From assembly GCA_913055635.1 (NCBI GenBank), contig CAJXLK010000034.1:1-52421 (forward strand): a stretch of DNA of 52,421 bases. Reading direction: 5' to 3'. Each line of letters opens with the position of its first letter. Within the stretch, counting starts at the first letter, position 1. This document shows, piece by piece, positions 1 through 52,421 of the stretch. Under the pieces are notes generated by a model. That model saw nothing but the letters and a program-made list of their open reading frames with translations. It had not been told where the DNA came from and searched no databases. The DNA is from an uncultured Bacteroidota bacterium (lineage in GTDB: Bacteria > Bacteroidota > Bacteroidia > Bacteroidales > UBA12077). The translations under genes were made by a program, and so were the position numbers.

Positions 1-74
1 ATTGACCACATAATGTCTGTTTTAAGATTCAGACCATATTGAGTTACAAACTATTAATTAAGTTATATACTTAT

Positions 75-131
75 GAAACCCTCATGCACCGACTAGCACA
101 AAAGGTAATGAATAAAACATGAGGGTTCCAT
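75..131 (+). repeat. Interspersed hairpin element, copy E1
   Basis: Imperfect inverted repeat of about 56 nt. The 5' arm GAAACCCTCATG pairs with the 3' arm CATGAGGGTTCC, and the loop contains GCACAAAAGG. It is followed by CATGGC and a spacer of about 77 nt leading into copy E2, giving a 136-bp tandem unit. The spacer (about 137-206) recurs almost identically on the minus strand near 22838-22900 and 52330-52400. In this copy the KPA-type reading frame seen in other copies is broken by a stop and a 1-nt length change. Confidence 0.8.
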
Positions 132-210
132 GGCATAGGTTACCGAGACCAACGAATTACATACTATTATTATACTGAAATACAAACTGTTAATTAAGTT
201 ATATCCTTAT

Positions 211-268
211 GAAACCTGCATCCAATAAATTACACAACAAGGACATGTTTATTTCATGCAGGTTCCAT
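211..268 (+). repeat. Interspersed hairpin element, copy E2
   Basis: Second unit of the tandem pair. The arms are GAAACCTGCAT and ATGCAGGTTCC, and the loop contains ACACAACAAGG. The arm sequence differs from E1 but is still complementary to its partner. A short frame opens at the ATG at 209-211 and runs 23 codons (begins MKPASNKLHNK). The sequence after the hairpin decays and ends in TATACGAATGAA directly at the gmhB start. Confidence 0.8.
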
Positions 269-318
269 GTGACCAATTAATTAAAAAATAAACACATGAA
301 TAAATTTTTTATATACGA

Positions 319-906
319 ATGAACCAGAACAGGGATGATCAAACGAAGCGGCGGGCCATTTTTCTCGACCGCGACGGGGTATTAAACGTGGAGAAGACCT
401 TTGTTCTTTCACCCGGACAAATGGAGTTGATGGAGGGGGCCGGGGAAGCCCTCAGGCGGATCAACGAATCGGATTATCTGGCGGTGGTGGTGACCAATCA
501 ATCGGCGGTAGCCCGGGCCTATATCACCCTGGAGGAGCTGGATGCGATTCACCGACAGATGCGACGGCAATTGGAGCAGGCCGGGGGGCACCTGGATGGG
601 TTGTATTTCTGTCCCCACCGTGAGCGGTTGGATGGGGAGCAGGGTGATCCGCAGTTCATAAAGGATTGTGCATGCCGCAAACCCAAGCCGGGCTTGCTTT
701 TTCAAGCCGCCCGGGAGCTGAATATCGACCTGAAACAATCTTTCATGATCGGTGATAGTGCGCGGGATATAGAGGCCGGTAAAAATGCCGGGTGTACCAC
801 CATTGGCGTGCGAACCGGGCATGGCCTCAAGGGGTTGACTCACCCCCCTGATCATATTTTTGATGATGTGAAAGGGGCAGTCGAATATATCCTGGGAGAT
901 ACCTGA
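319..906 (+). CDS. gmhB: D-glycero-D-manno-heptose 1,7-bisphosphate 7-phosphatase (HAD family)
   Basis: HAD-superfamily phosphatase that removes the 7-phosphate from heptose bisphosphate during synthesis of the ADP-heptose used in LPS core; cytoplasmic. The 195-residue length is normal for the family. Visible motifs are the nucleophile motif DRDG at 17-20, VVTNQS (motif II), the zinc-binding pair CPH ... CAC, the CRKPKPG loop (motif III lysine) and GDSARDIEAG (motif IV). The C-x-H and C-x-C zinc ligands favour GmhB or histidinol phosphatase over generic HADs. No other heptose or histidine gene is nearby, so substrate rests on similarity. The only usable ATG lies at the edge of the repeat element upstream, and no Shine-Dalgarno sequence is seen. 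Confidence 0.88.
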   Translation: MNQNRDDQTKRRAIFLDRDGVLNVEKTFVLSPGQMELMEGAGEALRRINESDYLAVVVTNQSAVARAYITLEELDAIHRQMRRQLEQAGGHLDGLYFCPHRERLDGEQGDPQFIKDCACRKPKPGLLFQAARELNIDLKQSFMIGDSARDIEAGKNAGCTTIGVRTGHGLKGLTHPPDHIFDDVKGAVEYILGDT

Positions 907-6097: not shown

Positions 6098-6147
6098 GAA
6101 ACCTTCCGGATCCAATCATCCTTGAAATCTTAAAAGAACAATCAAAT

Positions 6148-6205
6148 GAAACCTGCATCTAAGAACTTACACAACAAGGACATGATTATTCCATGCAGGT
6201 TCCAT
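6148..6205 (+). repeat. Interspersed hairpin element, copy E3
   Basis: Arms GAAACCTGCAT and ATGCAGGTTCC; loop contains ACACAACAAGG. It is nearly identical to E4, exactly 90 bp downstream. It lies inside the 58-codon open frame 6146-6322. Confidence 0.8.
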
Positions 6206-6237
6206 AAGGCCAAAAAATTAAATAAAAATAACCTGAC

Positions 6238-6295
6238 GAAACCTGCATCCAAGAACTTACACAACAAGGACATGATTATTTCATGCAGGTTCCAT
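6238..6295 (+). repeat. Interspersed hairpin element, copy E4
   Basis: Same arms and loop as E3. The spacer after it ends in ATCGTATGAA, similar to the unit boundary seen at other copies, about 45 bp before the sensor kinase start. Confidence 0.8.
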
Positions 6296-6372
6296 ACGGC
6301 CAATATATTAATAAACAAATAATCGTATGAAATAGATTAAAATATTTGTTAACTTCAAACAAATTTATACCC

Positions 6373-10625: not shown

Positions 10626-10680
10626 CAACCCGCCTGCCGAATCCACAGCGTAAGAGGGATGGATTCATGCAGGCGGGTTA
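10626..10680. repeat. Hairpin element copy E5, possible shared terminator
   Basis: Perfect 11-bp arms AACCCGCCTGC and GCAGGCGGGTT around a 31-nt loop containing TCCACAGCG. It lies between the convergent receiver and polyferredoxin genes. The stem matches the spacing of the hairpin family but its arms carry a different sequence. On the plus strand it is followed by ATTAT, not a T-run. The DNA just upstream (10505-10605) repeats variants of ATCCCTGA and TTCCTGG. Confidence 0.6.
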
Positions 10681-12586: not shown

Positions 12587-12605
12587 AAGATGTCTTTGTC
12601 TAAAT

Positions 12606-12662
12606 GAAACCCCTATCCAGGAACCTGCACAAAAGGTTACCTCTAAAGCATGCGGGTTCCAT
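12606..12662 (+). repeat. Interspersed hairpin element, copy E6
   Basis: Five-prime arm GAAACCCCTATCC, three-prime arm GCATGCGGGTTCC, with weak pairing between C-rich and G-rich parts; loop GCACAAAAGG is conserved. A short frame reads MKPLSRNLHKRLPLK from the ATG at 12605. It is 20 nt from the polyferredoxin start, on the opposite strand, and 131 bp before E7. Confidence 0.7.
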
Positions 12663-12736
12663 GGCGAATGTCCGATAAGATTTGATAATGGTGAATACTT
12701 TGTTGATTGCTAACCGATTAAGTCTTTATTCAAATA

Positions 12737-12793
12737 CAACCCGCATGCCGTAAATTTTCCCAGGGGGAATTGTCTAAAGCATACGGGTATCCT
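12737..12793 (+). repeat. Interspersed hairpin element, copy E7 (diverged)
   Basis: Arms CAACCCGCATGC and GCATACGGGTATCC pair with one mismatch; the loop has lost the CACAACAAGG core. The preceding spacer ends in TTAAGTCTTTATTCAAATAC, like other unit boundaries. Confidence 0.6.
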
Positions 12794-12867
12794 GCGATCG
12801 GATCAAAACCCTAAATGGCGCAGGAGTCATTATCAGACCGCACCATAATAGGTTGGACCCGAAAGCC

Positions 12868-13794: not shown

Positions 13795-14300
13795 TCAATT
13801 TTTTTTGTCCCTCTTATAAGAAGTTGCAAAGCATAAAGATAAAAAATCTCCCCATCTAATAAAAGAACCCCATTTATATTAAACGAGTCTAAATAATATA
13901 CCTTGAACTCTTTTTTTACCGGCCGGGATTGCTATAACCTGCTTCAAATGATGCCTGGGAGTTTTTTTCTGGATGGACCGATGGCGCAAAGCGGATTTTT
14001 ATTATTTTTATTTTTTGCCCAGCTCAGCGGTTCGTCTCCTTTATAAGGGCACCGTTTTTTGAAGCCACATGCACGGTCATCCACAACAATGCTGTCAGTA
14101 ACGCATGTGGGTTCCATGGCGGGTGTTCCGGGAGTAATAGATTAGGGTTCAATGCAATGCTGATTGATAAGCCTTAATACGTCTTTAACCGGAGAAACTG
14201 AGAATTTTGCATCCCCAAACAATGGTTTTAAAGAATTGATTTTTCAGAAAATAAACAACAGTTTAAATCAAATAGAAATCTTCAGCAAAAGCCTATTCCG
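13795..14300. other. Divergent intergenic region with one hairpin element
   Basis: About 500 bp between the DUF362 and cyanophycinase genes, with no credible ORF. It is AT-rich (13795-14040), including T-runs near 13910 and 13990-14020. On the minus strand TATGCTTTG lies about 35 nt upstream of the DUF362 start and resembles a -7 box with one extra base. Copy E8 occupies 14061-14117, and a degenerate copy of its spacer follows to about 14200. Confidence 0.5.
14061..14117 (+). repeat. Interspersed hairpin element, copy E8
   Basis: Arms GAAGCCACATGC and GCATGTGGGTTCC pair perfectly over CCACATGC. The loop contains CCACAACAATG. It is followed by CATGGCGGGTGTTCCG, the same junction as in other copies. 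A single unit upstream of the cyanophycinase-like gene and on its strand. Confidence 0.75.
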
Positions 14301-22733: not shown

Positions 22734-22837
22734 GACTTTGGCATTAAAACCATGTTTTCAGAAGACGAAACAATAACGAAAAAAATGGGGGGCTGGTATG
22801 CAGGAAGGATTTTACCGGCAATTCATTCGTATAAAGT

Positions 22838-22963
22838 TTACTTAACAGTTTGTATTTCAGTATAATAATAGTATGTAATTCGTTGGTCTCGGTAACCTCT
22901 GCCATGGATCCCGAATGCTTGATACATGGCCTTGCTGCATAAGTCCGTGCATGCGGGATTCAT
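22838..22963 (-). other. 41-codon open frame across hairpin E9 and its spacer
   Basis: On the minus strand an ATG at 22963 opens a frame through the hairpin and the whole spacer to a TAA at 22838. It begins MNPACTDLCSKAMYQAFG, then GRGYRDQRITYYYY, and ends EIQTVK. Copy E10 upstream has a matching frame without an ATG (NPAYKQLCNKTMYQTCGIHG). Codon changes between the two are mostly non-silent, so there is no sign of selection on protein. I list it as an open frame, not a confirmed gene. Confidence 0.2.
22905..22962 (-). repeat. Interspersed hairpin element, copy E9
   Basis: Minus-strand arms AATCCCGCATGC and GCATTCGGGATCC, one mismatch; loop has TGCAGCAAGG. It is followed on the minus strand by CATGGCAGAGG and a spacer nearly identical to that at 137-206, ending in ACTTTATACGAATGAA at about 22822-22837. 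It lies upstream of, and on the same strand as, the ABC permease gene. Confidence 0.8.
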
Positions 22964-23038
22964 TGGTATAAAGACTTACTAAAGGTTATCCATTAGCATC
23001 GTATTGTGCCATAAACCATTCTTATCGGAACGCTTGCC

Positions 23039-23097
23039 ATGGATTCCGCATGTTTGATACATCGTTTTGTTGCATAACTGCTTGTATGCGGGGTTGA
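23039..23097 (-). repeat. Interspersed hairpin element, copy E10
   Basis: Minus-strand arms CCCCGCATAC and ACATGCGGAATCC; loop contains TGCAACAAAA. It is 135 bp from E9, the usual tandem unit. Its spacer (about 22966-23035) differs from the E9 spacer but aligns with the E6 and E8 spacers (GTTCCGATAAGAATGG). The rest of the 22734-23212 gap shows nothing else, apart from a 14-bp duplication CCTGGGCTTTTAAT/CCTGGGCTTTTACC at the dapB stop. Confidence 0.75.
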
Positions 23098-23212
23098 TTG
23101 GTTTATCTTTTTGCTTTTAACGGCCCATTGGAACTTATTCCGCAAGGCGGGAGTGTTATATGATTGTAGCTTAACGTTTGAGCCAGCGTTTTGATCGGGT
23201 AAAAGCCCAGGA

Positions 23213-52317: not shown

Positions 52318-52421
52318 CAACGATTCATTCGTATAAAGCTTAATTAACAGTTTGTATTTCAGTATAATAATAGTATGTAATTCGTTGGTCTCGGTAACCT
52401 CTGCCATGGAACCCCCATGCT
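52318..52421 (-). repeat. Spacer and partial hairpin element E11, cut by the window end
   Basis: Minus-strand spacer nearly identical to 137-206 and to the E9 spacer. It is followed on the plus strand by CCATGGAACCCCCATGCT, the 3' arm of another hairpin copy cut off by the window edge. The downstream boundary again ends CTTTATACGAATGAA, 35 nt before the M23 peptidase start. Confidence 0.75.

Follow-up and report, generated by a model that had tools for sequence, protein, structure and literature searches.

A mobile hairpin element bounded by ATGAA and often found at start codons in Bacteroidales genomes

The hairpin family predicted from one contig of an uncultured Bacteroidales bacterium is real, and it is larger than first described. 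It is a mobile hairpin element that forms direct repeats, is bounded by the pentamer ATGAA and often stands at start codons. The original prediction saw half of the unit and overlooked its conserved linker, its ATGAA boundaries and its link to start codons. Units of one structure have spread within and between genomes and form head-to-tail arrays; they stand at start codons where relatives have none, and their stems covary. Taken together, we think it probable that this is a non-autonomous mobile element that targets ATGAA (sometimes GTGAA) and has spread as units of hairpin plus linker.

Element copies in the window

The window, by which we mean the whole stretch of 52,421 nt analyzed here, is contig C34 of a draft genome of 4.08 Mb in 77 contigs (G000). 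Judged by MutS2, its nearest named relatives are uncultured Bacteroidetes/Bacteroidales bins, at 80% and 76% identity in the best segment, and one of them carries the label GSL. A covariance model built from 37 hairpins (R1) was used to scan both the window and the genome. It recovered eight full hairpin copies in the window, with E values from 1.6e-18 to 8.6e-11, far above chance, as well as a copy cut by the contig end at 52406-52421 (E 0.066). Eleven places had been put forward as copies; these nine hold, while those at 10626 and 12737 are without an R1 match. The spacing of 90-136 bp reported for tandem copies was reproduced (73 to 209, 6146 to 6236, 12604 to 12735 and 22904 to 23039), as was the intergenic placement, with the confirmed copies lying outside the main ORFs. 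The features, in order, are as follows.

1-72, plus strand: 3' part of a type-2 linker, its unit cut by the contig start; it recurs after other hairpins of the genome, e.g., C30:32135 and C72:4209.
73-131, plus strand: hairpin with stem CCCTCATG/CATGAGGG, 5' box ATGAA and 3' foot TTCCAT (R1 E 8.7e-17; folds).
132-208, plus strand: type-1 linker of 77 nt, ending ...TTATATCCTT before ATGAA; its length and sequence family recur in many arrays.
209-268, plus strand: hairpin with stem CCTGCAT/ATGCAGG (R1 E 8.1e-18).
269-295, plus strand: short linker GTGACC...AAACAC, then ATGAA at 296-300 (read from the sequence).
301-323, plus strand: probable remnant ...TATATACGA-ATGAA (sequence and ORF list).
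6146-6205, plus strand: hairpin (R1 E 1.6e-18).
6206-6235, plus strand: type-3 linker of 30 nt (linker typing).
6236-6295, plus strand: hairpin whose left box has decayed to ACGAA (R1 E 1.9e-17).
6296-6331, plus strand: type-3 linker (31 nt) and right ATGAA, with no start codon at this site (linker typing).
12604-12662, plus strand: hairpin, older copy (R1 E 4.7e-14).
12735-12794, plus strand: probable decayed second unit, ATACAACCCGCATGC... (position and stem only).
14058-14117, plus strand: hairpin, older copy (R1 E 2.1e-11).
22904-22963, minus strand: hairpin, then on the same strand a type-1 linker at 22827-22903 and ATGAA (R1 E 8.1e-16; linker score 0.98).
23039-23098, minus strand: hairpin, older copy, in tandem with 22904-22963 across a 75-nt linker (R1 E 8.6e-11).
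52324-52421, minus strand: type-1 linker and a hairpin truncated by the contig end, of which the 3' foot is left (blastn 93%, E 1.9e-34 over 52324-52419; R1 E 0.066).

In the linker at 269-295, the GTG behind the foot pairs with the CAC ahead of ATGAA, and the ATG at 319, inside the remnant at 301-323, is the predicted start codon of a HAD-hydrolase gene. The place at 10626 lies between the ends of convergent ORFs (10498, plus; 10748, minus), and a terminator is as likely there as a decayed unit. The place at 12737 was unmatched by R1 at E<=10; it looks like a decayed copy, as it sits where the next unit is due and begins ATACAACC. Separately, the segment 10624-10683 forms a strong hairpin between the convergent genes (-31.8 kcal/mol as RNA) and has ATACAACCCGC in common with the presumed decayed copy at 12735.

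Unit architecture and arrays

A unit consists of a hairpin of about 60 nt (ATGAA-stem-loop-stem-TTCCAT) and a conserved linker that is about 30 or 76/77 nt long, with ATGAA on both sides. The left ATGAA and the foot TTCCAT form the base of the stem, and the loop has a ACACAACAAGG-like core. The main linkers belong to types 1 and 1b (about 77 nt), 2 (76 nt) and 3 (about 30-32 nt) or to an older group related to type 1. Past the first six bases, type-3 linkers are about 61% A. Terminal inverted repeats, as in a classical MITE of a DDE transposase, were not apparent by eye at the ends of the unit (ACC... and ...ACGA or ...CGT). Tandem units have one ATGAA in common, which is kept exactly at 25 of 32 joints.

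At least 145 copies are present in G000 at E<=0.001 with R1, a lower bound because 150 of 2084 candidates were scored. Of these, 141 were read with their flanks (C50, C62:16087, C63:14143 and C77 were left out for missing sequence), yielding 32 tandem joints, 59 typed ends, 44 with another linker or cut and 6 that were too short, the last two groups being unscored. The left box is ATGAA in 104 and the foot TTCCAT in 108 of the 141 copies. They make up 113 arrays, 86 single, 22 double and 5 triple (27 direct arrays), and no opposite-strand neighbors occur within 250 nt among the 145 copies. Several contigs of G000 end within copies. Twelve identical hairpins were found among the 141; none of 129 units (hairpin plus 76 nt) were identical, the closest pair differing by 2, so that very recent movement gets no support.

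Head-to-tail arrays with a common core, a hairpin at which recombination could occur and an identical short core on either side would also suit integron-like cassettes, in which a tyrosine recombinase acts on the folded hairpin and ATGAA is the common core. Integron gene cassettes have an attC site with an R'/R'' core, GTTRRRY, and an integrase. The units here have no long ORF, however, and no recombinase-like neighbor recurs. Of the readings that we weighed, we give this one the lowest probability.

Some further features of the units deserve attention in their own right. The left ATG of G000 units opens short upstream frames, of which 26 in 108 close within 19 codons, that is, inside the hairpin. 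Loops (e.g., window 96-110 and 233-246) have, by eye, an ACAA(A)C..GG.ATGA-like core that is kept even between distant families; it may be recognized by a protein or be a very short open reading frame. A sub-family with a longer stem (ATGAAACGTCCATGACAAAATAATCATT...) stands beside a unit at loci L008 and L010 and also before C62:72 (an acyl-CoA dehydrogenase-like gene), and seems to retain the type-3 linker and the ATGAA end.

Folding, covariation and pairing

Compensatory stem changes, as originally claimed, stand out when cells are counted: in genus rows chosen with a stem filter, a bias towards pairing, 25 cells are changed on both sides against a shuffled mean of 8.9 (reached by 0 of 500 shuffles). 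Counted by pairs, the signal is weak (4 pairs, a number reached by 53 of 500 shuffles). Columns 9-52 hold CG 21 times, UA 11 and UG 3; columns 10-51 hold GC 20, CG 7, UA 3, AU 1 and UG 1. Across 44 genomes, stem positions 7-11 are paired in 193 of 220 cells (shuffled mean 141.8, maximum 163), again with a bias towards pairing, as one hairpin per genome was picked by hand and stemless or out-of-family matches were left out. The fixed ends of this set say nothing about pairing, being part of the search pattern. An alternative stem class, with tandem GA opposite AG and arms CGAGC...GCGAG, occurs in many genomes (e.g., G082, G279, G401 and G552), including 11 of the 44.

Folded as DNA, window 60-340 is mildly better than its shuffles (z -1.81, 8 of 200 as good), and single hairpins folded as RNA give z of -2.2 to -6.4. 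The copy at 73 folds better on the minus strand (-22.1 versus -15.6 kcal/mol on the plus strand) because its A-C mismatch becomes G-U.

In units with short linkers, the bases past TTCCAT pair with those ahead of the start codon in 67 of 96 cases (shuffled mean 44.9, maximum 61, p 0.0002). The same pairing is weaker with long linkers (34/112, p 0.019). In another test of this pairing, the start used for L081 and L084 lies later than the boundary read by eye. With flanks paired in this way, the CAT of the foot can pair with either the left or the right ATG. By analogy with the guide and cleavage sites of IS608, TTCCAT might act as the guide, pairing with the ATGAA of either boundary as well as that of the target. 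Where the foot reads TTCCAC, the right end is GTG in four of four copies of other genomes (L067, L080, L081 and L084); in G000, where the right end can be read for one TTCCAC copy (C10:65927), it is ATGAA and not GTG, which counts against the guide idea. The pairing of TTCCAT with ATGAA could be a palindromic protein site instead.

Placement at start codons

The right box is exactly ATGAA at 50 of the 59 typed array ends in G000. An ORF of at least 80 aa begins at the right end in 27 of the 59, and in 32 it does not. As background, the window has 27 ATGAA sites that lie between genes or at gene edges and are not part of an element, and 6 of these open an ORF of that length. The start-codon excess in G000 is about twofold. 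Because background sites also open ORFs and the excess is of this size, the target appears to be ATGAA rather than the start codon, and start codons are probably the commonest harmless place for an ATGAA-targeted insertion. ATGAA is a common start-codon context in Bacteroidota.

Placement is more regular outside G000: of 30 loci fetched from other families of the order, 22 have a right ATGAA at which an ORF of at least 60 aa starts (manual tally), and some of the remaining eight look like chance matches to the pattern. Genes at array ends in the order and family include trigger factor, RidA, SucC, GcvH, D-Ala ligase and SerC, names that were given from N-termini with no database.

Ten N-termini from G000 were used as queries against four congeners (G001-G004). 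For metG, the start codon is the same in all four orthologues, and the 190 nt examined contain no unit. G003 aligns with G000 over the 77 nt that end at the base before the ATG, and G000 has a further 452 nt of units ahead of the same start codon, the first of them decayed (ATACAACC...). Because the native DNA of G003 matches up to that base, the array was inserted precisely at the metG start. The alignment stops 21-23 nt before the ATG in G001 and G004, and metG of G002 gave no alignment clearly above shuffles.

For moxR, upstream conservation reaches to within 5-10 nt of the start in G001, G002 and G003, against 332-335 nt in G000; for priA the distance is 21 nt (G001) or 56 nt (G004), against 476 nt in G000. 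The sole strong alignment for MetF is to a G002 copy that occupies a different ATGAA, located 51 nt ahead of the start. No alignment clearly above shuffles was obtained for priA of G002 or MetF of G003, and nothing aligned above shuffles for HyuA, DUF72, ACAD, LepB and HAD, some of which had little upstream DNA. The priA of G003 and the acyl-CoA dehydrogenase of G001, where the start could not be placed, were left out, as was LarC, which had no orthologue locus.

This placement invites another interpretation, namely a cis-acting RNA switch under selection, in which TTCCAT pairs either with the left ATGAA, leaving the start free, or with the real start codon, blocking it. Two competing pairings do use TTCCAT, the second of which covaries in short-linker units; among 10 short-linker leaders folded, several have a start codon that is base-paired in the RNA prediction; and in many genomes the element stands exactly at start codons. 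The congener orthologues mostly lack the element, however, and the G002 MetF copy stands at a different upstream ATGAA. The 32 G000 array ends away from a recognized start, the absence of such a family from Rfam and the variety of downstream genes, few of which recur, also speak against a switch. Moreover, movement is needed because of the head-to-tail arrays and the 12 identical hairpins. We therefore hold a selected switch to be quite improbable, although a regulatory effect on translation may arise as a by-product of the mobile element that we favor.

For such an element, insertion at ATGAA would be tolerated because its right end rebuilds ATGAA and supplies an A-rich leader, presumably one from which genes of this phylum can be started. 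Genes of the phylum start without Shine-Dalgarno sequences, and A at -3 is favorable (PMC6847099).

Spread across genomes

Within the genus, R1 finds copies in all five genomes (139, 90, 67, 43 and 18, with 67 in G002, 43 in G003 and 18 in G004). The family's other genus has 48 copies in one genome and 0-7 in the other 17, and the family-wide run found copies in 15 of 25 genomes. A more generic pattern, ATGAAANNNNNATN{26,37}ATGNNNNTTCCAT, fixes only the ends of the hairpin. It matched 74 of 393 genomes of the order, with up to 101 matches in one of them (G082), as compared with 12 single matches for the reversed control (manual tally). In the phylum it matched 25 of 395 genomes versus 5 control matches (manual tally), and most of these 25 look like chance.

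Outside the order, six fetched loci were judged real (G515, G554, G480, G667, G706 and G552), six of six having the right ATGAA at such a start. Units with different stems but the same ends are present across the order and in another class. Viral contigs gave 0 matches with two specific patterns, and plasmids gave no match.

Search for the mobilizing enzyme

The original prediction envisioned a mobile palindromic repeat of the REP kind moved by a RAYT. A mobile structured palindrome is what emerged (at least 145 copies, empty sites, covariation), whereas the REP and RAYT part of the claim fared poorly. A Y1 gene is present in 12 of 16 element-rich genomes, which would fit a RAYT, but also in 10 of 11 element-free genomes; Y1_Tnp has no match in G002 (67 copies), G003 (43), G004 (18) and G008 (3), nor in G279, G375, G062 and G096. 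The predicted Y1 gene flanked by copies did not appear: with looser patterns, the element was found at 0 of 62 fetched transposase loci (60 Y1, 2 Y2; about 1.5 kb on each side, some cut by contig ends), while a positive control recovered 50 of 57 element loci. R1 at E<=1 found none on 30 transposase loci, and a stricter pairing filter on 30 loci revealed no association.

Atypical REPs spread by TnpAREP (RAYT) therefore seem unlikely, even when those of the Bacteroidetes subclass 2.6, with hairpins lacking GTAG, are considered. This subclass is mostly from Bacteroidetes, and its atypical flanking hairpins are described as being without GT[AG]G and having copies elsewhere in the genome (PMC6006769). 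This rival is favored by a RAYT-like N-terminal fragment (75 aa, NHFH) located where a contig of G000 ends, and the lack of inverted pairs among the 145 copies speaks against it. RAYT-like frames scored about 20-40 bits with PF01797 in these incomplete drafts; because the drafts are incomplete and PF01797 scores RAYTs low, a divergent RAYT, especially of subclass 2.6, could have escaped detection.

The RAYT-like piece is worth describing for itself: it lies at L031:1-227 (contig C51 of G000), is cut by the contig end and has the NHFH motif within its 75 aa. Beside it, at L031:480-575, are CCCCGCTAAGCGGGG palindromes, and similar ones come after the hairpin at C28:29180. The gene may thus belong with a second family, one that is REP-like.

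Other kinds of enzyme were considered. An IS91-like Y2_Tnp was rejected as the mover, having matched in just 2 of 19 genomes (G001 and G325). Reverse transcriptase RVT_1, found in 7 of the 19, was likewise rejected, being absent from element-rich G000, G002, G003, G019, G082, G279, G325, G368, G062 and G096. An all-against-all comparison of 1151 ORFs beside copies gave 9 clusters spanning two or three genomes; one contains an ABC ATPase, and none is a transposase or recombinase by reading of sequence starts. Related ATPase-like proteins, beginning MKRVTRDLQ and MKTISRDLQ, were seen near copies in two species of the genus, at L029 (on C11 of G000, past the copy at 55063) and L076 (G003); these are perhaps simply orthologues.

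A structured RNA had also been offered as an explanation. For known families, Rfam, HEARO included, gave 0 matches in the window at gathering score and no relevant match at E<=1 in 12 element loci. An existing named family that fits the copies, which would have refuted the original prediction, was not found in what was searched, and the open-access literature searched held no recognizable account of start-codon elements of this kind.

Comparison with known systems

The element resembles both REPs and the ends of IS200/IS605 in kind. Like REP, BIME and REPIN sequences, it consists of small, numerous, intergenic hairpins that spread within genomes; E. coli REPs also retain a stem mismatch (PMC8266576), comparable to the A opposite C here. 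REPs, however, have GTAG or CGTC at the foot, whereas this element has ATGAA/TTCCAT, and no GTAG or CGTC tag is among the commonest boxes listed for the 141 copies. Its arrays are direct and never inverted, and each hairpin comes with a conserved linker (about 30 or 77 nt). REPs are found mainly downstream of coding regions (PMC3733652), while this element lies before genes, often at their start codons. Classical REP membership was rejected on three tested defining features: the tag, inverted pairing and a copy-flanked tnpAREP.

The REP-like hairpins of TnpAY1 subclass 2.6 come from the same phylum, have no GTAG tag and are unusual hairpins copied in the genome (PMC6006769). Those hairpins flank the tnpAY1 gene in that account, whereas this element was at none of the 62 transposase loci. 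The two, compared here by description, may nevertheless be identical.

The IS200/IS605 ends (IS608, ISDra2) and their derived MITEs have a fixed short target on one side, an end hairpin and guide-target pairing (PMC6006769), to which ATGAA, the hairpin and TTCCAT may correspond here. This element differs in having one hairpin per unit, with one guide-like foot for both boundaries, and TnpA was undetected in several element-rich genomes. A MITE of this origin has a target of 4-5 nt next to one end and does not duplicate it; with ATGAA on both sides of the present unit, a target duplication and an end box in common look alike. The TAACTGA repeats of Beggiatoaceae and some Bacteroidetes likewise lie just upstream of start codons of genes without a common function (PMC4679880, abstract); they are direct repeats of a heptamer, and that abstract describes no hairpin or insertion boundary.

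Outlook

If the preferred reading of a non-autonomous, ATGAA-targeting element is correct, a candidate enzyme would act in trans, and the unit might move as folded single-stranded DNA, a step of which we are less sure. A broader proposal, which we offer tentatively and consider rather less probable, is that the element represents a phylum-wide class of mobile DNA, guided by pairing to ATGAA and thereby specialized in start codons, which supplies its own leader, rebuilds the start codon and depends on a kind of recombinase not yet linked to such repeats. Should the enzyme be new, the element is possibly more than a variant of the REP or IS200/IS605-end kind.

Several consequences would follow if these ideas are right. 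Many 5' leaders in some Bacteroidales genomes would be mobile DNA inserted exactly at the start codon, bringing with them a leader structure able to hide or expose it. The hairpin, foot and target would provide a defined substrate with which to hunt for the enzyme. More generally, the element would offer a testable case of selfish DNA that avoids harm by restoring the very feature that it interrupts.
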